DNA of 20,601 bases. It comes from a virus. The notes beneath the pieces were generated by a model. It was not told the DNA's origin and made no database searches. It saw nothing but the letters and a program-made list of their open reading frames with translations. The stretch lies in the IMG/VR virus record IMGVR_UViG_3300035698_004444, positions 1-20,601 of that record; one strand, given 5' to 3'. The first letter of the stretch is position 1, and each line of letters begins with the position of its first letter. Of the stretch, positions 1 to 20,183 are shown in pieces. The position numbers and the translations under genes were made by a program.

Positions 1-1730
1 GGGAATGTTCCTGTTATTTCCGCAAAATCCGAATGTACAGCCGTGTCGCCGCGCCCTAACATACCAATCCCATTATACCCACATGAATAAACCGTTCCTG
101 CGTCGTCTATCGCATAAGCACAAACGGAGTTATAAGTCCTTCGACTACCGAACGCAAATATTTTTGCCACGGTAATGGTGCTCGTGACAAAGTATTCAAC
201 GCGTGTGAAAACTGATCTATTGACTAAATCATTATGGCCACCTGATCCATAAGTGGCATTAATGCCGCATGAATATAGCCAGCCATTTGTTGCTAGTGCA
301 TATGCCTGGCCGCTTGTGAAAACCAATTCTGCTATCGTCACGCCAGCGGGTAGCGCCGGGGAAAATCCAGCCAACCCAACGGCGAGCGTAGATGGAGAAA
401 TTTTACCCCTACCAAGTACACCATTAGCCCCATATCCCCAACTAGCTATTTTTCCGTTTGATAGTTTAACCATCATATTTGCACCAGTGATCGATTCACC
501 ACGGTTTTTAGGAAATGAAGCCACCGTAACTACATCGCTTTCACCTGATTGGTTTAAGATCACCCAATTAGTGCCATCATCACGCACCATTAAAAACTGA
601 CCATTGTTTACAATGCCATCAACCAATGCACCACCCTGGCCATATTGTTTCAATGGCTTTGCCCCGGTTCCGTCGTTCAGTGTATTGGCCCCGGTAGATC
701 CTGCAGCGTGCGCTTTAATATTATAGAATTCTGTTTGTACATTGCTAGCCACCGTGAAGGCCGGCACCGTTCCTGCTGTATTAAAAACAGTGATTTCGTT
801 ATCTAATATATCGAATAAGTCTTCTTTTGTGGGCACCTCGTCATTGTTTTCCCATCCGGTTGTATAGGGATCATTTGGCACTGACTGATCAGCGCTGAAT
901 GTGTTTGCCGTTGCAAGGCCAGGCACCACCAAATTGTCTCGACTGGTTTGCTTGTTGGCCAAGTCTGCCAGGTTTTCTGTTGTGACCATATCACCGAAGC
1001 CGGCACCTGCTGCGCCTTTCTGTGCAAGCACATCCCAATAAGTTACATTCGGCGGTGTGTTGCCTGTCGTGTCACCTTTAGCCAGGTAAGATGAACCACC
1101 CGACTGCACCGCGTCATTTTGCACGTAAGCTGTGCCGCCAGCGTAATCACCACGCCAATTGATTTTTGCGACATTCGCCGAAGCTGCAGCAGCGGTTGCT
1201 GCAATCGCAGCTGCAGTGGCCGCGTCGGTTGCTGTGTCAGCATCGGCAGCTGCCAACAACAATGCTGCAGGATCTAATAAGTCAGAAGTTTCTAAGCCGT
1301 CGGCGCCAGCATTCCAAACAATTGCACGACTGGCCACCGGGGCCGGAAATGTCAAATCAACGCCTGGCATTACTTCTGAAAATGCAAAAACTTTTGATAA
1401 ATGATATTGCAACTGCTGCAGCATAAGCACTGTATTGTCGAGATCATCGTCCAGCACTTCTGCAATCAGTGCACCATTTGTTTGATAATCAGTTAATCGT
1501 CTGAAAGTGATATCGCGGAAGATCTTGATTTCTGTCAGATTGGCAGGGGCCGGCGTGATGTTGATCGATCCCGCATTGTCACCAATGCCTGACGCCGTGA
1601 ATGCAGCATTAACGCCATCAACCGTGACCGCTAGATCATCGATACTTAACGCCCTAAATGGGAATGTGAAGTCTTCGGTTATCCCGTTACCTGTATATTT
1701 GATAAAAGGTGTTTGCACTTGTACTGTCAT
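1..1730 (-). CDS. Tail fibre protein with T7 gp17-like N-terminus and RCC1-type repeats (3' end outside window)
   Basis: The frame is open from the ATG at 1730 to base 1, giving 576 codons with no stop, so the C-terminus lies beyond the left edge. GAGGA sits 7 bases before the ATG, and only 14 bases separate it from the large terminase stop. Residues 1-105 resemble the T7 gp17 N-terminal domain that anchors fibres to the tail (KYTGNG, DFTFPF, then an IFRDITFRR strand). Residues 145-190 are Ala-rich and probably form a coiled stalk. Residues 192-238 look like a small carbohydrate-binding-type module (W192, GDTTG, YWDVLA, KG). From about residue 400 there are RCC1-type propeller repeats with the [WC]G.N/A.G.LG.G signature at W431, C488 and C550, spaced 57 and 62 residues. 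The likely role is host receptor recognition. Anchor homology is strong; the receptor is unknown. Confidence 0.9.
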   Translation of the reverse strand, partial: MTVQVQTPFIKYTGNGITEDFTFPFRALSIDDLAVTVDGVNAAFTASGIGDNAGSINITPAPANLTEIKIFRDITFRRLTDYQTNGALIAEVLDDDLDNTVLMLQQLQYHLSKVFAFSEVMPGVDLTFPAPVASRAIVWNAGADGLETSDLLDPAALLLAAADADTATDAATAAAIAATAAAASANVAKINWRGDYAGGTAYVQNDAVQSGGSSYLAKGDTTGNTPPNVTYWDVLAQKGAAGAGFGDMVTTENLADLANKQTSRDNLVVPGLATANTFSADQSVPNDPYTTGWENNDEVPTKEDLFDILDNEITVFNTAGTVPAFTVASNVQTEFYNIKAHAAGSTGANTLNDGTGAKPLKQYGQGGALVDGIVNNGQFLMVRDDGTNWVILNQSGESDVVTVASFPKNRGESITGANMMVKLSNGKIASWGYGANGVLGRGKISPSTLAVGLAGFSPALPAGVTIAELVFTSGQAYALATNGWLYSCGINATYGSGGHNDLVNRSVFTRVEYFVTSTITVAKIFAFGSRRTYNSVCAYAIDDAGTVYSCGYNGIGMLGRGDTAVHSDFAEITGTF

Positions 1731-1744
1731 TTTATAGTCCTCAA

Positions 1745-3394
1745 TTAATCCACATCAACTTCAACGATGCCCTGGTTTGGTCGCCATAGTTTACTTGTTT
1801 CCACTATCGATTTATCGACTATTTTTCCGATACGCACTGGCGTTTGCAATATACCGCCTGATCCTGCATCAATATAATCGTCGTCTTGATTTTTAACTAA
1901 CGGGTTAAATCTGCGCATTTGATCAAAAGCTGGCGACTTAATAACTGAAATATGCGCCCATAAATGGCCCGTTTGCAGCGGCGCCTCGAACGCCTCTAGG
2001 ATCCTAATCTGTTTATTGCCACTTACCTGGTGATCAGTCACGCCACAACCAGTGCCACTTAATGCACGCCTTAGAATTGGTGGCACAAAACCACCAACCC
2101 CGTTGGTTTCAACAACCACCTGCGGTATCTGTAATTTTTTGACAAGCTGCGATATACGATAACATTGGCCGCTGTTAATCTCGCCTTTATTGTTAAAGCC
2201 GGCAAGATCCCCCATTAACGCTTCAACAAAGTGCCAGTAGTAATTGCCTTTCAGATCTGTAAGCATTACCGAAAATACTGAATCGTCCGATGTTATTTTT
2301 CCTAGTGCACAATCCCAATAAGCCACCATGCCATAAATCTGCTGACGTCCAAGCCACATCGTCACCTCGCCGTTAGCCTGTTTGATTTCAGGCTGCACGT
2401 CGTATGGGATCATACGCTCGGGATCAAGGCGTGATTCTGTGACCGGTTTCGCTTCTAATTGATATTGAGAATCCCAGGCATTTAACGTTCTAGTTTCTTT
2501 GCGGCGCTGCTCAATATCCAACCTGGTGAACCGTTCCGGCCAAGCGCATTCTGCGCAGATATCTATCGCCACGCCAGGCGGTGCAGAAAATACTACTTCA
2601 TTTTCATCGACTTCATAATCTTTGCCTTCGACTAACATTCGCGCAAATTTATGGATGCCGGCAATCACATATAAACCATCATCACCTGGGATAAAATCAA
2701 ACTTATAACGCAAGCTTTTTTGCGTGCGTTCGTATCTTTTCATATGCTCAAATAGTGGTATTTTTAGCAGCGCGGCGCCACCTTCTATTTGTTCCAGGTA
2801 AATTGAATCGTATGTGTGCGGGGTGCCGACATAAGTTTTTTGACCACCAGGCACTAGAATGTGCGTGACGTCTTCCATTTTAGTTCTTAGATTTTGCCTG
2901 GCATCAGGGGTTTTAATGTTCTTTGGCACTTCAACATCATCAAAATCCGCGTTATCAGTTCGGGATCCCGTGGCGTTAGAGTTCACGCCAACCGCTTCAA
3001 TACTTGGATTTCGTGCATCGATCGAACCATTCACCCAAAATGATAATGCACCGGGCTTTTTAGGCAGCATACCAACGCAAAGCGGGTGCCGTTTTAAAAC
3101 GTTCAAGGTGTCACGCGTCAGCTTGCCGGCCAGCTTGTCATCAGCGGCATATATAAGAGATCTATTAGCGCGATCTTTGTATAGTGTGTAAGCCTTCCAC
3201 ACCGCATAAATTGTGGACTTAGCAGCGCCACGAAAAACCATTAAAACCCGCACCGGATCCTGGCAGGAATCTAACCACAAGCAAATGCGCACGTGTAACA
3301 GGGGCACTGTCCAATGCATCACCTTTGCCCACATCACGAAAAACGTTAAAAAAGTTACATCTTGATTATCGTTTTCCATGCGTGCTGCGCTCAA
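1745..3394 (-). CDS. Terminase large subunit (packaging ATPase and nuclease)
   Basis: This is the DNA-packaging motor, which docks on the portal, pumps DNA into the procapsid and cuts the concatemer. The ATPase half shows a Walker A-type loop RGAAKST at residues 55-61, in which Ala replaces the last Gly, a Walker B-like segment ending in FDDVEV near 151-156, and a coupling motif YVGTPH at 188-193. The RNase H-fold nuclease half shows the three acidic positions expected for metal binding: D361 in YWDCALGK, E429 in VVVETNG, and the DDDYID cluster at 504-509. The first codon used here is TTG with AAAGG five to six bases upstream. An ATG five codons later (3379) is an alternative but lacks a well-placed ribosome binding site. 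The gene overlaps the end of the small terminase gene. The length, about 549 residues, is normal for T7-like large terminases. Confidence 0.95.
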   Translation of the reverse strand: MSAARMENDNQDVTFLTFFVMWAKVMHWTVPLLHVRICLWLDSCQDPVRVLMVFRGAAKSTIYAVWKAYTLYKDRANRSLIYAADDKLAGKLTRDTLNVLKRHPLCVGMLPKKPGALSFWVNGSIDARNPSIEAVGVNSNATGSRTDNADFDDVEVPKNIKTPDARQNLRTKMEDVTHILVPGGQKTYVGTPHTYDSIYLEQIEGGAALLKIPLFEHMKRYERTQKSLRYKFDFIPGDDGLYVIAGIHKFARMLVEGKDYEVDENEVVFSAPPGVAIDICAECAWPERFTRLDIEQRRKETRTLNAWDSQYQLEAKPVTESRLDPERMIPYDVQPEIKQANGEVTMWLGRQQIYGMVAYWDCALGKITSDDSVFSVMLTDLKGNYYWHFVEALMGDLAGFNNKGEINSGQCYRISQLVKKLQIPQVVVETNGVGGFVPPILRRALSGTGCGVTDHQVSGNKQIRILEAFEAPLQTGHLWAHISVIKSPAFDQMRRFNPLVKNQDDDYIDAGSGGILQTPVRIGKIVDKSIVETSKLWRPNQGIVEVDVD

Positions 3395-3757: not shown

Positions 3758-6223
3758 TTATTGGCCAAATGCGCCGGCAAAATCCGGTGCACGATCCGGC
3801 GCACTTTCGCCAGGGTTCCACCAGTATTTCGTGCCATAGTATTTGTAAGAATTAGATTTTACTCGATTCAAATAGCCTGGTGACAAACTTTCTTGTAAGT
3901 CATCAAGCACTAAATGCCGAACCGCTGCCCTGGCATACCATAAATTGACAAAAGGCGTATTAGATCGGCCGAACCTTACCAACTCGGCCCCCATGTTTGA
4001 TCGTTCGCCACGTAAAACCTGGCCAGCATTTCCGATCGTTAAGTCGGCCGCGTCAACAACACTGCCAAACACCGGCCCAACTAAGCCGCCATAATTAGAT
4101 TGACCGCCACGCCCTTCACCACTTAGGCCAGTATAAAGGATATCGCCGTATATTCCAAAGCCGCCGCCCTGGGCCATCGCTTTGCCCCAAAATTTTGGAT
4201 CTGTCATATCAGCTGGATCACTACCAACGGCCAGCGATTTAAGCTGCGTCGATAATGCACCAAAGCCAACAAGGCCAACCATTAACCCGACACCATACCC
4301 AGTGCCACCACTTTCGCCATTGTAGTCAAGTGCGCGACGTATATGACGATTAGCCATTGCCAGTGGAAATGATTTGAATAAGCTTAAATGGCGCATGAAT
4401 TCGCCTGATAGTGTGCCTTTTTGTGTGCCGCCGCCAAGACTTGCACGTGTTGTGAGATCCGGCGTTGTGATTGCATATTCTGATTCATCAACAATAAAGC
4501 CAAGCAGCCTGGCCACGGCTTCATCGCGCATTCGATTTGGATCTACATCTAACCCGCTAGACTTGCCAAACTCAAACAGCACGTGATCAGGAATGTTGCG
4601 AATTGAATCCGGTGTTAGCATCTTGCTGCCGCGCCAGTCTTCGGCGATTGCCTTCTGCCATACTTTGTATGTATCGATCGTCACGCCTTGAAACTTCAAA
4701 CGATGCCTATCTTTAACGTTTAAATTTTGCCACGGCGTATCTTTCATTTTACCAAGCGATCCCATCATTGAGATCTGAAAACCGCGTTTTAGCGAATCAG
4801 TCCACTTGTTGATTAATGAGAGTTTATTTGTAGCATGTGTGAGTTTTGACGTCCATCCCTGGGCCATATTGCCGTCAGCGAACCGTGACATATCTTGGAT
4901 AATTGAATCAGTCACCAGCCCTGTTACATTTGCATAGTGTGTGTAATCTTTACCAAATGCTTTGATTGACGTGGCCAGCGTTCTAAAAATAGGCAAATTG
5001 TGGTATTTGCTTGTCGCCATTAGCGTTGGAATATCATTGATAGAACTCAATATCACGCCCTGCAGTTTATTAGCTACCGTTAAATTGCGAAGGCCCTGGT
5101 TAATTTCTGCCATTTTCGGGCTTACGGCTTGATTATTTTCGTTAGTCAGTACGCGATAAAGCGAATTAAGATCAGCATAAGCAGCGCCAACCAATGATAT
5201 TTTTCCATCGTGCTGCAGTGCCATATCATGAATCAACTGATAACCAGCTTTTGAGTTTGGGCCGAGTTCCTCAACCACGCCAATATTACGACTTAGTGCA
5301 TTTACATGGCCCTGCATTGAATCATATAACGAACCTTTACCAAACGATTCATGATAAGCCAGCCAGGCGCTATCGTCTTTAAAATGCAGTTGACGTGACT
5401 GGCTGCCACGATTAGCCAGTGACGATCCAAACTGCACCTTGCCTGGTTCAAGTTTATTCAAGCCACCAGTGGCAAGCGTTTGATACACTTCACCAAGCAT
5501 TTTATTGAATTCAACATCGCTCAATCGTTCGCCCATGCCGTCCACATAGCGACTTCGATCCAGTTTGTTGCCAATGGCAGCCACCCATTGTTCAGGCCCC
5601 GCTTTTAAGATCCGCACCTGATCGTGTGATTGTGGTATGTAGCCATAATCAAGCTTTCCAATATCGCCGCCGCTTCTATTAAAACGCTGCCGCATTTTCT
5701 CGATCGTTTCTAACCAGGCTTTTGCACCTTTCTTTGCCACCGGGTTTTTGCTATCACGGCCAAATATTTCGGTGATAAAGTCGCGGTTTGATTTTGGATT
5801 GTCTAGTAAACCAAAGAATCTAGGTTCAGCTGATTGGATTGCATCAAACATCAAACTAAAGTTTTCATGCGCCACGCCGTTCACATATGCACTCGCCTGG
5901 TTTAGTATGCGCTCAACAGCATTGGCCCCCGTGGTGCCCTGGTTTGTTTGTTCTGTAAAGCGTTGACTAAGTTTTCCCTGGGCTACAATGCCAAGCGCAA
6001 CCCGCTGCGCCTTCATTTGGGTGTCTGCAATAAACTGTTTTGCGCTTGCTTCTGCTGCTGCATTTAATCGATCTGACATACCCATGCCTTGCCAGGCGTT
6101 TGGATCCTCTTTGGCGATCCTGGCCATGTTGTCACGGATCCGCTTTTCTATGCCTTCGGCTTCACCTGTTTTAAGTTTACGGCCAATGGCCTGGCTTACT
6201 GCGTCGATGCAATCTTTTTTCAT
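3758..6223 (-). CDS. Large internal virion / DNA ejection protein
   Basis: An 821-residue protein between the polyvalent ejection protein and the terminase genes. The N-terminus (CIDAVSQAIGRKL, then KRIRDNMARIAKEDPNAWQ) and the C-terminus (LWYARAAVRHLV, then SPGYLNR and a YWWNPGE...RAPDF tail) match my memory of a widespread family of large phage internal proteins with no known enzymatic motif. It is mostly helical, with one clearly hydrophobic Gly-rich segment at about residues 642-661 (GYGVGLMVGLVGFGAL) that could enter a membrane. With its two upstream neighbours it probably forms the internal core that leaves the capsid with the DNA and helps build the channel across the host envelope; this is inferred from position. 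Its ATG overlaps the previous stop by one base (TAATG), and AGGACGGG lies just upstream. Confidence 0.75.
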   Translation of the reverse strand: MKKDCIDAVSQAIGRKLKTGEAEGIEKRIRDNMARIAKEDPNAWQGMGMSDRLNAAAEASAKQFIADTQMKAQRVALGIVAQGKLSQRFTEQTNQGTTGANAVERILNQASAYVNGVAHENFSLMFDAIQSAEPRFFGLLDNPKSNRDFITEIFGRDSKNPVAKKGAKAWLETIEKMRQRFNRSGGDIGKLDYGYIPQSHDQVRILKAGPEQWVAAIGNKLDRSRYVDGMGERLSDVEFNKMLGEVYQTLATGGLNKLEPGKVQFGSSLANRGSQSRQLHFKDDSAWLAYHESFGKGSLYDSMQGHVNALSRNIGVVEELGPNSKAGYQLIHDMALQHDGKISLVGAAYADLNSLYRVLTNENNQAVSPKMAEINQGLRNLTVANKLQGVILSSINDIPTLMATSKYHNLPIFRTLATSIKAFGKDYTHYANVTGLVTDSIIQDMSRFADGNMAQGWTSKLTHATNKLSLINKWTDSLKRGFQISMMGSLGKMKDTPWQNLNVKDRHRLKFQGVTIDTYKVWQKAIAEDWRGSKMLTPDSIRNIPDHVLFEFGKSSGLDVDPNRMRDEAVARLLGFIVDESEYAITTPDLTTRASLGGGTQKGTLSGEFMRHLSLFKSFPLAMANRHIRRALDYNGESGGTGYGVGLMVGLVGFGALSTQLKSLAVGSDPADMTDPKFWGKAMAQGGGFGIYGDILYTGLSGEGRGGQSNYGGLVGPVFGSVVDAADLTIGNAGQVLRGERSNMGAELVRFGRSNTPFVNLWYARAAVRHLVLDDLQESLSPGYLNRVKSNSYKYYGTKYWWNPGESAPDRAPDFAGAFGQ

Positions 6224-9200
6224 TATCCCGTCCTATTAAAACAAATAACAGCGGCATTAAACGCCTGGCTTTCCAGTTCTGCTTCGGCCACTGCGTCGTC
6301 AGCAATTTCGATCGCTTCTTTTACTGTCACTTCGCGGCCATCATCCATCGTGTATTTCATGTTTGGATTAAGTTCTGCCACCGCGTCAGCTGCTTGCATT
6401 TCAGGGGTTCCAAATAATTCGGTGTTACTTGGTGCCTCGTTTTTCATGCGTTGTGATTCAACTGAATCGGCGATAAGATCTTGCGCCAAAGGTGGCGCGT
6501 CGTCAAGCAGTTGGCCTTGCCGTGGATCCCCTAAGTCATCAACCGAGTTCACAAACTGATTGATCATATCTGCGATTCGTTTTGGCGCCCTGGAATTTTC
6601 CTGTAAACCAATCAATAAATTGTTTAATTCAGGTGTCATTTCAAAGTCAAACATGTTTTGCTGCGCCAGGTATTGTTCAACACTGTAACCTTTTGCCCGC
6701 ATATCTGAAAATTCACGCACGGCTTTTACCAGTTTAGGTGCGATATCAATCGGATATCTACCACCATCGCTGATCATTTCACGCAGCCTGGCCACTGCAG
6801 GTGCGGCCCTTAACATGCCATTCATAATGTTTTTGATGTTGGTGTCTGTACTTTCTGCCATCATGCCAACCACTTCACTATCGCCATAAGCTTTGGCAAA
6901 CACTGCATTTTTAATACGTGTTTCACCTTGTTGTGATAACTTGCCATCAGGGCCGATCATCGCCCCCTGTTCTGTTGGGGCTACCGTGTCATTCATAAAG
7001 TTTTTAACAAAAATATTACTTGCTCGAAAATTGATTGTACCGTCATCGGCAGCCACCATGCCATCAAGACTGTTAATTCTGCCGGCATCAGATCTTGCCT
7101 GTTCTACCACTGACATTGTGGCCACCCCGGCTTCGTTGGCTAATCGTGCAAATTCTGCGCGATCTGCATCGGCATTGCGCAAGCGCACCAGGATAGGGTT
7201 TTTTAATTGGGATAGTTCAGTCTGATCAAGGCCAAAACGTTTGGCATTATCATTCAACCATTCGCGATAACCTTCCGCTTTGCCGCCTTCATAAGCCCGA
7301 CGTAGTGCAATTGTTCGCGCGTTGCCTGATTCCACGATGCCGTCAGTGCCAACAATAGGGGCGCCGTCCGATATCTTTGCCGATTCTGCCAACAATTCAG
7401 GATTGATGTTGTTTGCAATGCGTGTGATCTGCGCCTCGCTTGCATCCCGGGTGCGATCACGTGGCTGCAATTCAGCTGGGAAATTTGGATTTTTTGCCAG
7501 GTTATTGTCGTGCGATGAAATCAGTGTAGAATCTTCAACTACGGCGAATTGAGTTTCAACAGCATCACCTCTTTCTGTGTATGATGTTGACTTGTGCCCC
7601 ATAAGGTTTTTATGTATAATATCCGTGAAAGGAGTATCAATAATGAATTTCCCACCTGACACTAAACTATTTGATGTTGAAGGCGTGCCCGTATCTTTAG
7701 ACAAAGATTGGGTTTGTTTAGCCTGGGATGGCCCCGAATCACGTCCATTTAACATAGGATCTGCCAGGCGCAATGGCACTTTAATATCTGAACGTGCTTT
7801 CAATGAATTAGTAACTTCTGCCCAAGCAGCATCATAGATTTTAATTTGTGCTTCGCGTGATTTCTTTAAAATTTCCACTTCTTTTTTAGTAGGTTTACGG
7901 CCTGTAGCTTCTAGTTCGCCCTCTAAGGCGCGTGTAGTTTCATAGATTTTATGGGCTTCATCTTTTGCTTTCAACATTTGCGGGAAGTTGATCTGCAATT
8001 CTGCCACCTGTCCATCGCCTAAATCAATATTCATTTTAATATCGCGATAACCGTCGTCACTCACCGGTTTTGAATCAGGCTGCAACGCATTGCGCAGCTT
8101 TTTCAATTCGCCGAATTTATCCTGCGCACCAGCCAGGGCGCTTTGCGCTTCGTCAAGCCCTTCAATCACGATCGTCGCACGATTAAGATCTTTGATTTTT
8201 GTTACATCGCCTTTATATTCGGTAATTATTTTTTCAGTCGCGCGATCAACCCCTTTTAATTCATCAGGAATTAACGGCTTTTGTGTGATCCCGGCTTCCG
8301 CTAGTATCGCGTTAATACCATCATCAAACTTTTGCTTCACTGCTGCAGCTGCTTCGTATTGCTGCGCTAGATCCTCGATAAATTGTTCCTGCAAGTCAAC
8401 ACGTTCGGCCAGGTGATTGCGCACGGTGTTGCCAGCATTATCAACAGGCACGCCATTTAATGCAGAATCAAGGCCGTCAGATAACACCTTGTCACTATAT
8501 GGCTGCTTGCCATTCTCATGCTGAATAATGGCTGCAGTAATCTTTTTCAATGTTTCAGGATTGTGCAAATTGATTTGGGTTTCACGTGAAACGCCAAGCG
8601 CTTTGGCCACAATGCCAGCATAGGCGCCTGTATCATTTTCGCTAGGTGGTGCCCATCGATTAATGATTTCATCAACAGTATTTAAGCCGTGTTTATCCTG
8701 GTAAGTAATTAAGTTTTTACCAAGTGCACGGATCCCCGATTGTGGGGTGTCAAACGCCGCAAAACGCTCGTCGTTGCTTTCAATCTGCCCACGCCATTGC
8801 GTGTTATCTGCCACAATATTGCCAGGGTTATTATTGCGAATACCACGTGATTCACGAATGAATGTTGCGCCCTGTATATTTTGATTCACATTAACTTGCT
8901 CGCCTCTTGCTAGCTGCATGATCGTTTCTGCTAGCGCGTCCTGGTGGATCTTATTTGATTTACCATCAACCGGAATGCCTGGTCCCGTTTCATTTTGCGC
9001 GTCGTTTGCTTTGCTTTCAACTAGCGCAGCATCAACCATATTGCGTGCGCCAGGGCCACGCGCTAAACCAAAGAATGCAGCCCCTAGAAGGGTGTCGATC
9101 GTCACTGCAGTGGCATCAAATGCGTTGTATTGCTGTGCCTGGGCTTCATAGCCATTGCTTGACAATAATTCTTTTGTGCCTTTACGCGACGCAACGCCTA

Positions 9201-9777
9201 AACCAACATTGACGCCAACGGATAGGCTAAAGTCTGCGATCCAGTTTTTAACGAATCTTGCTGCCGGTATAGTGGAACCAACGCCCAAAACTGCAGCATC
9301 GATCAACCCTTTTTTGGCAGCCGTTGATTCGTCGATGCCTTCATCTTGTGCTAACAGTTTGCTTGAATCGTAAGCCGGGGCACCTGCAAACATACCAGCC
9401 ATAAGCGGGCCACCTGCTGCTGCACCCATCGCAGTGCGTGGCAAGATATCAGCCAAAGGGCCAAGCACCTGACCAGCCATGCCGGTTGTTTGTGGATCCA
9501 CTTGTAATGGTTTAATTTTTTCAATCAGATTGACTTCGCGTTCAGTTTCGCGCTTTTCTCTTTCAGCGTCCGGCAAATGAATTTCGCTGCCACCAATGGC
9601 GCCGCCGATCTTGTCAAGAGTATATGCGCCCTGCATTAAACCCGATTTTGTACTGTCGTAAATTTGGCCGCCTAAGTTTTCAGTGAATGAAGGTTCCGGC
9701 GCTTCTGTTTCTAGCTGCATGGAATCAGCCATGTTTTTTATTGACGTGATATCAGTGACACCATTTAACCATTTCAT
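6223..9777 (-). CDS. Polyvalent ejection protein: transglycosylase-like, RelA/SpoT-like and DdrB/ParB-like domains
   Basis: A 1184-residue protein at the T7 gp16 position. Residues 105-245 hold several hydrophobic Gly/Ala-rich stretches. Residues 305-440 look like a peptidoglycan hydrolase domain (GIRNNNPGNI at 312-321, then FDTPQSGIRAL), as expected for an ejected protein that locally opens the cell wall. Residues 505-625 look like a RelA/SpoT-type nucleotidyltransferase fold: KIKDLNRATIV with D530, DDGYRDI with Y577, VAELQI with E593, and KDEAHKIYE. A polar linker (about 665-728) leads to residues 730-900, which match the DdrB-like ParB superfamily domain (TERGDAVETQFAVVE, LQPRDRTRD, GIVESGNART). 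The C-terminus (NPNMKYTMDDGREV...AAVICFNRTG) resembles tails of phage large polyvalent proteins. The start overlaps the preceding stop as ATGA. Structural role is likely; activity of the two inner domains is inferred. Confidence 0.85.
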   Translation of the reverse strand: MKWLNGVTDITSIKNMADSMQLETEAPEPSFTENLGGQIYDSTKSGLMQGAYTLDKIGGAIGGSEIHLPDAEREKRETEREVNLIEKIKPLQVDPQTTGMAGQVLGPLADILPRTAMGAAAGGPLMAGMFAGAPAYDSSKLLAQDEGIDESTAAKKGLIDAAVLGVGSTIPAARFVKNWIADFSLSVGVNVGLGVASRKGTKELLSSNGYEAQAQQYNAFDATAVTIDTLLGAAFFGLARGPGARNMVDAALVESKANDAQNETGPGIPVDGKSNKIHQDALAETIMQLARGEQVNVNQNIQGATFIRESRGIRNNNPGNIVADNTQWRGQIESNDERFAAFDTPQSGIRALGKNLITYQDKHGLNTVDEIINRWAPPSENDTGAYAGIVAKALGVSRETQINLHNPETLKKITAAIIQHENGKQPYSDKVLSDGLDSALNGVPVDNAGNTVRNHLAERVDLQEQFIEDLAQQYEAAAAVKQKFDDGINAILAEAGITQKPLIPDELKGVDRATEKIITEYKGDVTKIKDLNRATIVIEGLDEAQSALAGAQDKFGELKKLRNALQPDSKPVSDDGYRDIKMNIDLGDGQVAELQINFPQMLKAKDEAHKIYETTRALEGELEATGRKPTKKEVEILKKSREAQIKIYDAAWAEVTNSLKARSDIKVPLRLADPMLNGRDSGPSQAKQTQSLSKDTGTPSTSNSLVSGGKFIIDTPFTDIIHKNLMGHKSTSYTERGDAVETQFAVVEDSTLISSHDNNLAKNPNFPAELQPRDRTRDASEAQITRIANNINPELLAESAKISDGAPIVGTDGIVESGNARTIALRRAYEGGKAEGYREWLNDNAKRFGLDQTELSQLKNPILVRLRNADADRAEFARLANEAGVATMSVVEQARSDAGRINSLDGMVAADDGTINFRASNIFVKNFMNDTVAPTEQGAMIGPDGKLSQQGETRIKNAVFAKAYGDSEVVGMMAESTDTNIKNIMNGMLRAAPAVARLREMISDGGRYPIDIAPKLVKAVREFSDMRAKGYSVEQYLAQQNMFDFEMTPELNNLLIGLQENSRAPKRIADMINQFVNSVDDLGDPRQGQLLDDAPPLAQDLIADSVESQRMKNEAPSNTELFGTPEMQAADAVAELNPNMKYTMDDGREVTVKEAIEIADDAVAEAELESQAFNAAVICFNRTG
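7592..7620 (+). promoter_or_regulatory. Sigma70-like promoter candidate on the plus strand inside the polyvalent gene
   Basis: TTGTGC at 7592-7597 and a perfect TATAAT at 7615-7620 are separated by 17 bases, the optimal spacing. Only the TTG of the -35 hexamer matches consensus, so strength rests on the -10 hexamer. It points away from every other gene in the window and lies just upstream of a good ribosome binding site and a 64-codon frame. A chance match inside coding DNA cannot be excluded. Confidence 0.3.
7643..7837 (+). CDS. Candidate antisense small gene (64 codons), hypothetical
   Basis: The plus strand opposite the linker and nearby coding part of the polyvalent gene carries a 64-codon frame starting with ATG at 7643. 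AAAGGAG at 7628-7634 is eight bases before the ATG, and a promoter-like TTGTGC/TATAAT pair lies immediately upstream. The predicted product starts MNFPPDTKLFDVEGVPVSLD and continues with KDWVCLAWDGPE and GSARRNG; it has balanced composition, reads like a small soluble protein and is not recognised. The frame remains open further upstream to 7577. Because antisense frames without stops are frequent in this DNA, the frame alone means little; the aligned promoter, ribosome binding site and start are what make it worth listing. If real, its transcript would be antisense to the ejection protein mRNA. Confidence 0.25.
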   Translation: MNFPPDTKLFDVEGVPVSLDKDWVCLAWDGPESRPFNIGSARRNGTLISERAFNELVTSAQAAS

Positions 9778-12304: not shown

Positions 12305-12761
12305 GTTTAATTCCTCTCTCGAAATACTGAAAACCAAGTTTACAATGTTCTTTTTCATTGATCTTAAAGCCAAGCCATTTAAGCCATGTTTTTGCGACGG
12401 CATTGTCTTTATGCACATAATTGAATAGCTTTTTAGGGTATAACTTTTGCATTTCAGCAACTTCACCCCTGCAGCCGCGCACAAATTCACGCGAAAACTG
12501 CATGATCTTATCTGTTGCTAGCATCCACACCACGCCTTCCCCTTCTTTGTGTGTAGGTGTTACCCCGTATATCAAAGCGGCTTCATCATCGATCACGGCC
12601 ACCCGGCACCAAGTTGAATCTTGATAGCCTTCAATCACCATGATCGCTGGCCGAATGTCTAATTTATACGCGTGTAGTTCATCGATATCGCCCTGGCGTA
12701 AATTATGCGCCACGTGGCGTGCGTCTTCGATTGTTGCTTCACGTATGGTGATGTTATCCAT
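12297..12761 (-). CDS. GNAT acetyltransferase-fold protein, gp13-like
   Basis: A 154-residue protein with features of the GNAT fold: an N-terminal ITIREATIEDARHV strand-helix, a central VVWMLATDKI strand, and a C-terminal helix-loop VHKDNAVAKTWLKWLGFKI that matches the usual N..a..wL.klGF ending. A GNAT-like protein between the tail nozzle gene and the gp14-like gene is the usual T7-like arrangement, where gp13 is needed for assembly of the internal proteins; whether it acetylates anything is unclear. The frame extends to 12821, but the ATG at 12761 fits the fold start, and its first codons overlap the nozzle gene stop by eight bases. GAAGGG lies about 11 bases upstream. Confidence 0.8.
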   Translation of the reverse strand: MDNITIREATIEDARHVAHNLRQGDIDELHAYKLDIRPAIMVIEGYQDSTWCRVAVIDDEAALIYGVTPTHKEGEGVVWMLATDKIMQFSREFVRGCRGEVAEMQKLYPKKLFNYVHKDNAVAKTWLKWLGFKINEKEHCKLGFQYFERGIKHV

Positions 12762-14919
12762 TAACAGTGACCCTTCGCATGATTGACTGGATGTGCATAG
12801 GCAACGGTTGATCTTGTACAATCGTCACGACACCTGGACTTTCTTTATCCCACCCGGCTAGTTTAACTTTTTTGATGCCGGTGTACGGTTCTATTACCTG
12901 ATCCATTAGATCGCCAAATCGCCTGTATGGAATGCGAACCCCGTTAATGGTGCACCCTAGCGTATTTTGTACTTTTACCACGGCTTCCGAAGTGCGCACG
13001 TTTTTCCCTTGACTAGATCCTGTTTGGCCACTGACTTCAATTGGTAGCGTTTTGATTGTTGTTACATAAGGCAGTCCGATTGTAATGCTACTAACCGTGT
13101 AAGGTAAGGTAATTTGACCGCCACTTACAATAAAACTGCCATAGACATAATTATCACCAACGGCCACCACGGTTTTGCCGTTCAAATGGTCTAATCCAGT
13201 CCACACCGTTGCAGGAATCTCGCTTGTGCCTTCGATCGCGCTATCCATCAATACGCCTGGCTTAAAGTATTCAATATATTTTTTGATCACGCCATTAATA
13301 TCACGATCCACCACAATCCAAGTCTGCTGGATCCCTTCGATCGGTATAGTGCCAACTGATTTATAATCGCCGTCCGTTTGCTGCCTGGCCCAACCGGTTA
13401 CATTTTCAGATCTATCGATCGTAATTGTCGCCATATCGCCAGTAGCAAGCACGGCATACATTAAGCGATCAGGATCCTTTTGGAAACTAATATCAGTAAT
13501 GCCTAAACCTGCTATGTGATCCGCTATTTTTGATACATCGATCACGTCAAAGCCATCAATTTCAATCTTATAGCTTGCCGTTAATAATCGTTTTTTTGAT
13601 CGGCTTACATAATAAACTTCGTTATCAATTTTAATCGGCCTTACATCGCAGCCGCCATCGTCGGTTTGCGATCTGATTTGCACGTTTGTTGGTGTGATTG
13701 GCTTTTCTACGCCGCCACTAATAGAGAACACACCGCCGGATCCGATCGTCAGCATTTGACGGATATCGATCATATGTACGATCTGATCTTGTGACGATGC
13801 AATGTTAAACAAAAAGCCGTCATCATCATTGGTGCCCATTTGGAAATTAGTCAATTCACCTGTACGTGTGCCAGTAAATGATTGCGGGTATCTTGTTGAA
13901 CCACCTAAAAACCAACGCTGCTGATGTAGCAACCCGGTGCGCGGATAGCCAAGCGTTGCACTCCATATGCTGCTATTCAATGACCAGGCTAATTTTGGCG
14001 ATGCCGCTGCCGACGTTAGTGATTCTTTTACAATAGCCGTGACCACCTGATCTGTACTAATGCCATTAATCAATAAAAGGCCACCATTAACACGAACATA
14101 TTTGCCAATATCTGCGGTGCGCCACCCTGCTGCACCTAACGTTAAATTCACTTGTGTGCCAATCACTGCAGCGGTTGAAGGTGTGCATGTTGTTTGCGGT
14201 GAAACGTCTAGTTTCCAATCACCTGCAGAAATCGCCACGTTATCAAACGCCATCGTCACATTGACGTCGATCGATGTTGTTGAATTAACTGCAGTGACTT
14301 CGCCCAGGCCTTTACCCGATACTAAAAAGCGGCCCACGTCACTGGCCAAAAATGTCGCCCCCACAACGGTGGCCGTGCGTGCACCAACTGCAACACTGGA
14401 CAATGTGAGGGCTTCCGCTGGCACTAGCCCTAGTTCATCAAACGGTTCGACTTTAATCGGGGCATTAGCAATAAACCAATCAATATCGCCAAAACGTTGC
14501 AATCGCTGCGGGTATACCGTTTCGCATTCAATGAACATGGTGTCTGCGGATTGTTGAAAAGATAACTGACGCAGCACTGTTTCACTGTATGGCGTAACAA
14601 TTTCATACGGCACGCCTGGTGATGTTTCTAATTGCGCATTATTTTTAAATACACGCATATATAAATGACCGAATTCAAGCATATAAGATTGATCGGTATT
14701 GTAAGAAAACGGCACTAGAATCGTGTCTTTATCATCAAACTTGGCAGCTGCAGCAAATAAAGAACCGTCGCGATTGACTGCGCCGCCATAAATTAACGGG
14801 TATCCGTTTGTGATTTCCGCTGCAGCATTGTTATAGCGATCAATGTCTACCCTGCCGTATAATTTCGGGCTAAACTCGCCGGCGGTAAAGTTTGTTTTTA
14901 ATGCGCTAATATTGGGCAT
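12754..14919 (-). CDS. Tail tubular protein B / tail nozzle
   Basis: A 721-residue protein directly after the tail tubular A gene. The N-terminus (FTAGEFSPKLYGRVDIDRY, then NGYPLIYGGAVNRDG) is the conserved opening of podoviral nozzle proteins; the family forms the distal end of the short tail tube and closes it before ejection. The rest is beta-rich with repeated Thr/Val/Gly strands, as expected for a propeller and platform. It is close to the T7 gp12 length of about 794. The start overlaps the previous gene by 14 bases and the end overlaps the next start by eight. No enzymatic domain or unusual insertion was recognised. Confidence 0.88.
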   Translation of the reverse strand: MPNISALKTNFTAGEFSPKLYGRVDIDRYNNAAAEITNGYPLIYGGAVNRDGSLFAAAAKFDDKDTILVPFSYNTDQSYMLEFGHLYMRVFKNNAQLETSPGVPYEIVTPYSETVLRQLSFQQSADTMFIECETVYPQRLQRFGDIDWFIANAPIKVEPFDELGLVPAEALTLSSVAVGARTATVVGATFLASDVGRFLVSGKGLGEVTAVNSTTSIDVNVTMAFDNVAISAGDWKLDVSPQTTCTPSTAAVIGTQVNLTLGAAGWRTADIGKYVRVNGGLLLINGISTDQVVTAIVKESLTSAAASPKLAWSLNSSIWSATLGYPRTGLLHQQRWFLGGSTRYPQSFTGTRTGELTNFQMGTNDDDGFLFNIASSQDQIVHMIDIRQMLTIGSGGVFSISGGVEKPITPTNVQIRSQTDDGGCDVRPIKIDNEVYYVSRSKKRLLTASYKIEIDGFDVIDVSKIADHIAGLGITDISFQKDPDRLMYAVLATGDMATITIDRSENVTGWARQQTDGDYKSVGTIPIEGIQQTWIVVDRDINGVIKKYIEYFKPGVLMDSAIEGTSEIPATVWTGLDHLNGKTVVAVGDNYVYGSFIVSGGQITLPYTVSSITIGLPYVTTIKTLPIEVSGQTGSSQGKNVRTSEAVVKVQNTLGCTINGVRIPYRRFGDLMDQVIEPYTGIKKVKLAGWDKESPGVVTIVQDQPLPMHIQSIMRRVTVNG

Positions 14920-15502
14920 AGCCTACACCTAACCTTGCTTTTAACAATCTCTCGTCGCCAACCATTTCCGGTGGATCCTCGACGCCATCGACGGCGCGTG
15001 CGGTTCTTAAAAAGTCTTGCAAGGCCTTTTGTGCTGCTGCTTCTTTGGTTGTTGATTCAGTGACACTGTACGCAAACGCTGCGATCATGGCCAATTCCAT
15101 TGCTTCGACTAGCATTGCATCCCAGGTTGCCTCGTTGTAATTTTTATAAATGTATCGGATCCGCAAAGGCGCTTCGTCGCATAAGATCTGCCGCCCTTCT
15201 ATTTTATAATCCGGTTCCTGATATCGTTGACCTACTTGCAAAATACGCAGCTGATCTGCTGGCATTTCAAACGTGTTGGAAAAATCAAGCTGCAGCGGCA
15301 CTTCTAGCACTGGTAGTGCTGCCAATATTGCACGCTTTACTGCACAATTCCAGGGGTGTGATCTTAGCATGGCATCGCGTTGCGTGTAGTACAGCACTGC
15401 AAGATCGTCTATTTTGGTGTTTTCCTCAAAGCTTGATATTGATTCCTCACCAAGTCTAACGAGGGCATTTGATACGATTGTGGTTTCAGATACGATCTGC
15501 AT
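14906..15502 (-). CDS. Tail tubular protein A (head-tail adaptor), gp11-like
   Basis: A 198-residue protein with the family hallmark MLRSHPWNCAVKRAILAAL at about residues 40-58, followed by the strand FEMPADQLRILQV. T7 gp11-type proteins form the ring between the portal and the nozzle and hold the fibres. The C-terminal half (AMELAMIAAFAYSVTES onwards) is the helical bundle usual in this family. AAAGG lies shortly before the ATG at 15502. The gene begins just after the terminator-like hairpin that closes the capsid unit, and its end overlaps the nozzle gene by 14 bases. Confidence 0.88.
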   Translation of the reverse strand: MQIVSETTIVSNALVRLGEESISSFEENTKIDDLAVLYYTQRDAMLRSHPWNCAVKRAILAALPVLEVPLQLDFSNTFEMPADQLRILQVGQRYQEPDYKIEGRQILCDEAPLRIRYIYKNYNEATWDAMLVEAMELAMIAAFAYSVTESTTKEAAAQKALQDFLRTARAVDGVEDPPEMVGDERLLKARLGVGYAQY

Positions 15503-18581: not shown

Positions 18582-20183
18582 CTAAGCGCCCATAGGTGTG
18601 CCGCTGCCATCACCAACCAAAGTGGTGCCATTTACAGATTGTATATTCACATCGACTTCGTTGGCTTTTGTGAAGACAAATTGATCTGTTTTAGCTTTGA
18701 TATCAGTAATGCCGTCATTGTCTGCGGCCGTATAACCTGACGTGGCCAACCTGGTTGATATTGCAGCATCAATCCTGGCAAGTTCTGTCGTCAACTCGGT
18801 TCTAACTGCAGTGGCAATGGCTGCCAATTCAAGCGATGGAAGATCAAGGTTAGTGTTAATCAATGTCACGATTGCGTCGATCATTTGCTGACCGTCACCC
18901 TCGTTCAACAATGCGGCCTCAATTTGTGCAGTCGTAGGCACCGCTGCAGTAACTTGTGCCGCTGATAGGTTATTCAATGCCGCTAATGTCGCCGGCAATG
19001 TTGTGCCAGTGTCTACAAGCACGGCATCGACATTGTTATCAATTGTGCTTAGTTGTGTGTCAAGGTTAGCAGTAGCCAATCCAAGCGCGGCCCGTGTTTC
19101 AGAAGCCGTTAAACCACTACCAGCACTAATGCTAGATATTGCAGCATCTAAATAATCACCAACGATTTTCCCGGCTGTACCAGAACCATAAGATCCAGGC
19201 AGTGAAGTTGTCCACGGATCGCCAGCACTTGACGCGCCATCTAGTAATAGATCTAAACGGCCACCATTCACCCAGTCGCCTTGTAATTCGTTTGTATCTG
19301 CCAATATTGCAGTAATATCGCTATTCGCTGGCGCTGTATAACCTGCAGTAGAAAGTCGTGTCGTGATCGCAGCATCAATTCTGCCCAATTCTGTGGCTAA
19401 TTCGGTGCGCACTGCAGTCGCGATCGCTGCTAATTCTAATGATGGTAAATCAAGATTGGTATTAATTAACGTCACAATAGCATCGATTAATGCCTGGCCA
19501 TCGCCTTCATTCAACAATGCCGCTTCTATCTGCGCCGTTGTTGGCACTGCAGCTGTTACTTGCGCAGAAGATAGATTGTTCAATGCTGCGATCGATGCCG
19601 CTGTCGCTTTGGCCGCTAGTTGCGTGTCTATGTTTGCACTAGCAATGCCGATCGCTGATCGAATACCTGTAGCATCTAACGGTGCCACGGTTAAACTATA
19701 ACCAGTTTTGCCGATATTCCAATTGCCTTTACCGTCAAGGGATCCCGCAGAAAATTTAGCGGCTGTAAAAGCACTTGAAGCGATCGCCGCTGCCGTCAAT
19801 GTGTTTGCAGCCATTGCCCCTGTACTAGCATCGATCCGGCCACTGACTAATGCAGCCGGCAATCTGCCACTAATTGCGGCGAGTAATGTATTGTTATCAG
19901 CTGATTGAGGGAAGGTTGTGTAAAGCTGCACTGTTGCATTTAATCCGCTGGAATGCACGAATGTAAAAGCGATATGATCGTCGTTTGTTTCAGCCTGGGC
20001 CGGTGCATATGACCAGTAACCGTTGCCTTTATGCGTACATGCACCGGATCCAACAGATCCAGCTGCTTGCGTTCCGTTATCACCTGTCACGTAAATCGTG
20101 CACGTGCCCGTTGTGATAGGCGCCCCGTCAGCTGACGCTAACAATTGAATGCCAACAAATTGGCCCGATACGTTCTTTTTCAT
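18582..20183 (-). CDS. Probable structural appendage protein with duplicated domain
   Basis: A 533-residue Ala/Thr-rich protein. Residues 1-93 form a beta-sandwich-like domain ending in GNGYWSYAPAQAETNDDHIA and VQLYTTFP, a module common at the N-terminus of phage appendage and fibre-like proteins. The rest consists of predicted short helices and two 93-residue repeats (199-291 and 401-493), preceded by related segments RSAIGIASANIDTQL and RAALGLATANLDTQL. A final beta region (NEVDVNIQSVNGTTLVGDG) resembles tails of such proteins. AGGGG lies nine bases before the ATG, which overlaps the previous stop as ATGA. No membrane segment or enzyme motif is seen. It may be a capsid or collar fibre encoded within the head module. 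Confidence 0.65.
   Translation of the reverse strand: MKKNVSGQFVGIQLLASADGAPITTGTCTIYVTGDNGTQAAGSVGSGACTHKGNGYWSYAPAQAETNDDHIAFTFVHSSGLNATVQLYTTFPQSADNNTLLAAISGRLPAALVSGRIDASTGAMAANTLTAAAIASSAFTAAKFSAGSLDGKGNWNIGKTGYSLTVAPLDATGIRSAIGIASANIDTQLAAKATAASIAALNNLSSAQVTAAVPTTAQIEAALLNEGDGQALIDAIVTLINTNLDLPSLELAAIATAVRTELATELGRIDAAITTRLSTAGYTAPANSDITAILADTNELQGDWVNGGRLDLLLDGASSAGDPWTTSLPGSYGSGTAGKIVGDYLDAAISSISAGSGLTASETRAALGLATANLDTQLSTIDNNVDAVLVDTGTTLPATLAALNNLSAAQVTAAVPTTAQIEAALLNEGDGQQMIDAIVTLINTNLDLPSLELAAIATAVRTELTTELARIDAAISTRLATSGYTAADNDGITDIKAKTDQFVFTKANEVDVNIQSVNGTTLVGDGSGTPMGA
18705..18983 (-). repeat. Internal protein repeat, copy B (residues 401-493)
   Basis: Encodes a 93-residue repeat beginning AALNNLSAAQVTAAVP. 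It differs from copy A at 12 of 93 residues, only three of them within the first 64. The DNA differs at 33 of 126 bases in the stretch compared by eye, almost all at third codon positions. Confidence 0.9.
19311..19589 (-). repeat. Internal protein repeat, copy A (residues 199-291)
   Basis: Encodes the partner repeat beginning AALNNLSSAQVTAAVP, offset from copy B by 202 residues. The repeat includes a conserved block INTNLDLPSLELAAIATAV followed by RTEL, likely two helices used for assembly. Confidence 0.9.

Follow-up and report, generated by a model that had tools for sequence, protein, structure and literature searches.

RCC1-type propellers and phage tail fibers

RCC1, UVR8, the RLDs of HERC1/2, RPGR and BLIP-II are seven-bladed propellers with cellular functions; RCC1 proper is a Ran exchange factor, and the binding of Ran and nucleosomes would be unexpected in a phage. 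The tail fiber of phage T7, gp17, has an N-terminal anchor domain and is encoded in the late operon, and its C-terminal end is formed by a pyramid and an Ig-like tip, not by a propeller. In SCOP, fold b.69 is the seven-bladed propeller. The RCC1/BLIP-II group is superfamily b.69.5 of that classification (PMC3797127), and propeller lineages vary in blade number (PMC9218822). RCC1-type domains of phages are already known by name and are mostly called regulators of chromosome condensation. Such proteins were detected in the virions of W70 (PMC11370258) and GAP32 (PMC5259590), and a DNA-ordering role has been suggested for the RCC1-type protein of phAPEC6 (PMC7247149). A literature search retrieved no paper combining RCC1, phage, virion and propeller, and no eight-bladed RCC1 propeller in the titles, abstracts and passages covered; an earlier mention of eight-bladed forms might still exist elsewhere.

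Here we describe a T7-like tail fiber with what appears to be an eight-bladed RCC1-type propeller, which probably serves as an exchangeable receptor-binding head. This propeller shares RCC1 repeat sequence and blade fold with the cellular proteins listed above, and the fiber resembles T7 gp17 in its N-terminal anchor domain and in the late-operon position of its gene. What is new is the eight-unit count, its conservation across unrelated phages in both fiber and tail proteins, and the contrast with the stand-alone phage proteins.

A tail fiber gene shared by two virus records

The window, that is, the whole stretch of DNA analyzed, is one entire virus record of 20,601 bases, the left edge of which cuts the tail fiber gene. 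As the preliminary description stated, the minus-strand reading frame runs for 576 codons from the ATG at 1730 to the edge without a stop. A protein search with the fiber retrieved one record that starts inside the gene, IMGVR_UViG_3300035698_012097 (locus L002; 15,298 bases). The first 127 bases of this record are identical to window bases 127-1 on the minus strand, and its final 91 bases match the opposite window end exactly. Because both ends overlap exactly, the two records were joined into what appears to be a single phage genome of about 35.7 kb; the join is based on the exact match of assembled contigs at their ends, not on reads. Neighboring contigs from a de Bruijn assembly with k = 127 share exactly 127 bases. 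The tetranucleotide correlation between the two records is r = 0.93, against a median of 0.40 for the other loci, and a search of viral_contigs with a 58-base overlap pattern for any other continuation of the fiber gene returned only IMGVR_UViG_3300035698_012097. The assembly break falls inside RCC1 unit 3, perhaps owing to strain differences at that place.

The preliminary description had proposed to follow the gene leftward, with an incomplete propeller as one conceivable outcome. The frame in fact continues past the edge, uninterrupted by a stop or a frameshift, until the stop at 1014-1016 of the second record, so that the propeller is not truncated and the joined fiber comprises 535 + 337 = 872 residues. 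The features discussed below are as follows (window coordinates unless L002 is named).

3..1730, ending at 1014-1016 of L002, minus strand: tail fiber gene, first 576 of 872 codons (open reading frame and exact overlap)
1..127, no strand: 127 bases shared exactly with the start of IMGVR_UViG_3300035698_012097 (sequence identity)
1407..1730, minus strand: gp17-like anchor, residues 1-108 (phrog_1640; Pfam below cut-off)
1170..1268, minus strand: Ala-rich stalk, about residues 155-187 (sequence)
1002..1169, minus strand: CBM5/12-like module, residues 188-243 (phrog_5073; Pfam CBM_5_12 below cut-off)
537..1001, minus strand: residues 244-398, linker or end of the shaft, without a known family (profile searches)
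516..533, minus strand: strand VVTVAS, residues 400-405, proposed closure of blade 8 (aligned with strand 109-112 of the L008 model)
315..485, minus strand: RCC1 unit 1, about residues 416-472 (unit profile)
126..314, minus strand: RCC1 unit 2, about residues 473-535 (unit profile)
3..125, minus strand: RCC1 unit 3, first part, residues 536-576 (unit profile; rest in L002)
3-1013 of L002: remainder of RCC1 unit 3 and units 4-8 (unit profile)
1745..3394, minus strand: terminase large subunit, upstream neighbor of the fiber gene (phrog_38, E 2.5e-71)
12754..14919, minus strand: tail protein in gp12-like position, short-tailed-phage context (phrog_376, E 7e-172)
14906..15502, minus strand: tail protein in gp11-like position, short-tailed-phage context (phrog_394, E 7e-44)

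The joined genome encodes a portal, major head protein, internal virion proteins, terminase, fiber, endolysin and spanin, together with two tail proteins in the gp11 and gp12 positions. By this gene content, including the matches to phrog_394, phrog_376 and the portal family phrog_332, the phage is classified as a T7-like short-tailed phage. A search for a single-subunit RNA polymerase gave no match, but as the control likewise matched nowhere, this negative carries no weight. Two other proteins of the window were noted. A 1184-residue internal virion protein (6223-9777, minus strand) combines a lytic-enzyme-like stretch (phrog_873) with a ddrB-like ParB domain (E 1.1e-38), and a 533-residue protein of no known family (18582-20183, minus strand) contains a long near-identical internal repeat, AAVPTTAQIEAALLNEGDGQ...LPSLELAAIATAVRTEL, present twice.

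Domain architecture of the fiber

All the parts named in the preliminary description, namely a gp17-like anchor, an Ala-rich stalk, a small carbohydrate-binding-type module and RCC1 repeats, are present in the fiber in this order, with a linker ahead of the propeller. Residues 1-109 match the tail-protein family phrog_1640 (E 4e-19) and weakly match the T7 tail fiber N-terminal domain of Pfam (PF03906; E 0.00097, 19.3 bits, below the curated cut-off of 25.2), so that the assignment to the gp17 N-terminal domain comes through phrog_1640. Residues 188-243 match the tail fiber family phrog_5073 (E 3e-10), and their score against Pfam CBM_5_12 (E 0.0035, 17.8 bits) is below the curated cut-off of 26.2; the module is therefore denoted CBM5/12-like only, with a putative sugar-binding function. 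No phage matches were found for residues 299-399. The C-terminal part resembles RCC1 far beyond chance: the RCC1-like domain is matched at residues 419-563 (E 3.5e-10), the UVR8 propeller is matched by the continuation (E 1.4e-31), and the RCC1 repeat family PF00415 reaches 81.3 bits (cut-off 21.7; E 7.6e-23). The fiber ends in an RCC1-type propeller rather than in a tip of the gp17 type.

With this arrangement, the gp17-like domain would attach a presumably trimeric fiber to the tail, the Ala-rich stalk and the small carbohydrate-binding-type module would follow behind this anchor, and the C-terminal part would form an eight-bladed RCC1-type propeller, the last blade of which would be completed by the strand just ahead of blade 1. 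The propeller is most likely the receptor-binding part, a rigid disc that would dock onto a host surface molecule and that might be swapped or diversified as a unit behind the conserved anchor.

Eight RCC1 units and the predicted fold

The preliminary description recognized at least three RCC1 repeats in the window and, assuming the usual seven blades, expected at least four more outside. The window indeed contains three, the third cut by the edge, and five more precede the stop beyond it, so the total is eight and the expectation of seven blades is not borne out. This count was obtained with a one-unit profile whose training set was limited to repeats of Clostridioides, Brevibacillus and Synechococcus phages, and which is hence independent of the family to which the fiber belongs. 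An iterated profile also counts eight, although it is not independent because it includes units from the eight-unit family and from the window phage itself. When the iterated profile was applied to the collected loci, 82 of 87 complete viral RCC1 proteins with a length of 300-460 residues had seven units and 43 of 52 viral proteins with a length of 460-700 residues had eight; most bacterial RCC1 proteins had seven, 14 or 21. The tallies are of loci and partly include near-duplicates. The first profile reports seven units in some members of the eight-unit family, in which a terminal unit falls below the threshold and the alignment retains all eight blocks.

For structure prediction, we used a complete relative, a 554-residue protein of locus L008 that consists of a CBM-like module and a propeller and is about 33% identical; 42 sequences were used. 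The model (pLDDT 89, pTM 0.80) shows, from residue 123 onward, eight strand groups, the first seven with four strands and the eighth with three, and the strand 109-112, ahead of blade 1, would supply the missing fourth strand of blade 8 (8 x 4). A separate model of the window phage's fiber, limited to the C-terminal part (pLDDT 83.5, pTM 0.85), comprises five four-stranded blades and a final three-stranded one, for which VVTVAS would be the corresponding N-terminal strand. The blades of both models are arranged as in RCC1-like structures, so that the propeller fold anticipated in the preliminary description is indeed predicted. The best fold matches of both models are solved RCC1-like chains, with Z scores for the HERC2 RLDs of 35.6 (L008) and 32.5 (the window phage's part). 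The solved RCC1-like chains align with about 340-360 of the ~446 propeller residues of L008. Predicted viral structures with better coverage of L008 include the fibers of phages Littlefix and PollyC (TMq 0.68 over ~500 columns); for jumbo-phage RCC1 proteins, such as that of GAP32, the TMq is about 0.50. With the complete relative as a guide, the partial model suggests a closed eight-bladed ring in the window phage's fiber as well.

An ordinary seven-bladed RCC1 propeller, with the eighth unit lying outside the ring or acting as a linker, appears unlikely. It is true that units 1 and 8 have the lowest scores in the fiber sequence. The solved RCC1-like chains among the fold matches listed are presumably all of the seven-bladed kind, and no eight-bladed RCC1 chain is known among them, an absence that is no proof of nonexistence. 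In addition, a surplus blade can stay unfolded in engineered propellers (PMC9218822). However, both weak units are retained in all 31 complete module-plus-propeller homologs that were aligned and also in the Helicobacter prophage proteins, the L008 model has a single strand pattern across the eight units at high confidence, and the predicted PollyC and Littlefix fibers align with it over about 500 columns. Because eight units are counted and eight strand groups are seen in the model of the relative, we classify the domain as a probable eight-bladed variant homologous to RCC1 rather than as a canonical RLD. An eight-bladed form is thereby indicated in a superfamily known through seven-bladed structures.

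Related fibers and exchange of the C-terminal head

The preliminary description held that propeller tips are unusual on the fibers of short-tailed phages, a view that the relatives do not support. The same plan is found in cultured Pseudomonas phages with propeller fibers, namely PollyC, SeaP1-4 and Littlefix, and a large family of siphophage-like contigs has a related plan. The fibers of PollyC and Ppr_SeaP1-4 (phrog_4219) likewise belong to short-tailed phages and consist of an N-terminal anchor, a stalk and a C-terminal RCC1-type propeller. They are 863-900 residues long and have eight units by eye; the unit profile finds 6-9, with eight in SeaP4 and nine in SeaP1 owing to a duplication. 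In contrast to the window fiber, they have a long coiled stalk in place of the CBM-like module and an anchor of another subfamily, and their propellers show only distant similarity to that of the window phage. Littlefix (Schitoviridae), also a short-tailed phage, encodes a tail protein, gp88, with a C-terminal RCC1-type propeller of similar size; unlike the window fiber, this protein has 1365 residues and a different N-terminal part.

Comparison of these fibers reveals exchange of modules. Relative to SeaP2, the anchors of SeaP1, SeaP3, SeaP4 and PollyC are 99-100% identical and the stalks 82-96% identical, whereas identity in the propeller is 91% for SeaP3, 68% for PollyC, 37% for SeaP1 and 36% for SeaP4. 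SeaD1, isolated on the same P. protegens strain as the SeaP phages, has a 75% identical anchor and a different C-terminal part without a propeller. PollyC and the unrelated N4-like Littlefix, both isolated on Pseudomonas sp. CT12, have related propellers. A conserved anchor combined with a diverged or replaced propeller, and with a propeller shared by PollyC and Littlefix, is what would be expected of a receptor-binding head that is exchangeable; variation or exchange of the terminal part was found among SeaP1-4, PollyC and SeaD1, not among near relatives of the window phage. No receptor of the SeaP phages is named in the passages retrieved from the paper reporting them (PMC11888443). With the SeaP, SeaD, PollyC and Littlefix phages in culture, the question of the receptor can be addressed directly in laboratory pseudomonads, and cultured phages thus provide a precedent for the present fiber.

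Among the other relatives, the anchor and the module-plus-propeller are encoded by adjacent genes in the L021 contig, which carries tail genes of short-tailed phages, and by one gene in the window. The CBM-like module also precedes the propeller in L008, L009 and L021. In siphophage-like contigs, the propeller protein is encoded among tape-measure and tail-tip genes. The eight units of these siphophage-like tail proteins (L008, L009, L083-L101) and of the Helicobacter prophage proteins correspond one-to-one to those of the window fiber, and the siphophage-like set also has the CBM-like module ahead of the propeller. These proteins differ from the window fiber in lacking a gp17-like anchor and in being separate short proteins of a long-tailed tail module. 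The RCC1-type proteins of the jumbo and V5-like phages (GAP32 Gp1, phAPEC6, W70) are, in contrast, small stand-alone propellers, often in several copies, and their size class is that with seven units.

A function in ordering or condensing DNA, as implied by the name of the domain and its database category, seems extremely improbable for the present protein. Such a function is what the authors propose for phAPEC6 (PMC7247149), and the families phrog_4219 and phrog_7220 are labeled regulator of chromosome condensation, under DNA metabolism. However, the domain is fused to a fiber anchor, its gene lies between terminase and lysis genes, and in siphophage-like contigs it is found among tail genes. 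Because the SeaP2 fiber matches phrog_4219 end to end (E 4.6e-301), this family is, judging from the alignment, a fiber family at least in part, and its label is misleading. Proteins filed as DNA-condensing regulators thus become candidate receptor-binding heads, a point of relevance to their annotation and to the prediction of host range. More generally, we lean, if only slightly, toward the view that unrelated tailed phages (T7-like, N4-like, siphophage-like and Helicobacter prophages) share a dedicated eight-bladed RCC1 branch that serves them as an exchangeable head for receptor binding. This fold variant would have no solved example so far and is mostly labeled regulator of chromosome condensation or hypothetical protein.

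Variation within the head

The preliminary description suggested receptor binding through loop variation. In a close family of 19 members, the loops taken together do not exceed the strands in variability (difference 0.04 bits, p = 0.53), and faster evolution of loops than of the core was rejected. Variation is instead centered on the outer half of the blade, which comprises strands C and D with the intervening loop (p = 0.0002), and strand B is the least variable (p = 0.0018), all p-values taking positions as independent. The observation in the preliminary description is confirmed, and its interpretation is partly supported. If binding drives the variation, the candidate surfaces would be the rim together with one face, not the whole set of loops.

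The CBM5/12-like module could be the main receptor-binding part instead, with the propeller as a structural cap, a trimerization aid or an accessory protein-binding platform, which we consider rather improbable. The module is found in L021, L008 and many further relatives besides the window, and in the close family no blade exceeds it in variability (0.97 bits compared with 0.49-0.90 for the most variable blades). Nevertheless, the propeller of the PollyC and SeaP fibers follows a long coiled stalk, SeaP2 has no CBM_5_12 match, and it is the propeller that diverges in these fibers; the module also precedes many other fiber tips. The propeller accordingly stays the preferred candidate for the receptor-binding head.

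A search of the window and of G001 for a diversity-generating retroelement gave no reverse transcriptase match. In the L008 phage (IMGVR_UViG_3300002060_000050, G002), two adjacent reverse-transcriptase-like pieces below the Pfam cut-off are located at 36938-37412 (locus L247), and no template repeat was found between these pieces and the propeller gene of that phage.

Other propeller arrangements

Several further arrangements were observed among the collected loci. The fiber of Pseudomonas phage Ppr_SeaP1 (L013) contains, in the propeller at residues 648-721, an exact tandem duplication of 111 bases (37 codons), perhaps a blade under amplification or an assembly effect. Very long frames with ~50 or more RCC1 units, that is, strings of propellers, are present in the viral contigs L043, L060, L063, L068 and L152. 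Finally, L030, L031, L103, L106, L109 and L166 contain paired adjacent genes, each encoding an eight-unit propeller protein of ~550 residues, and these adjacent proteins may form a composite tip.
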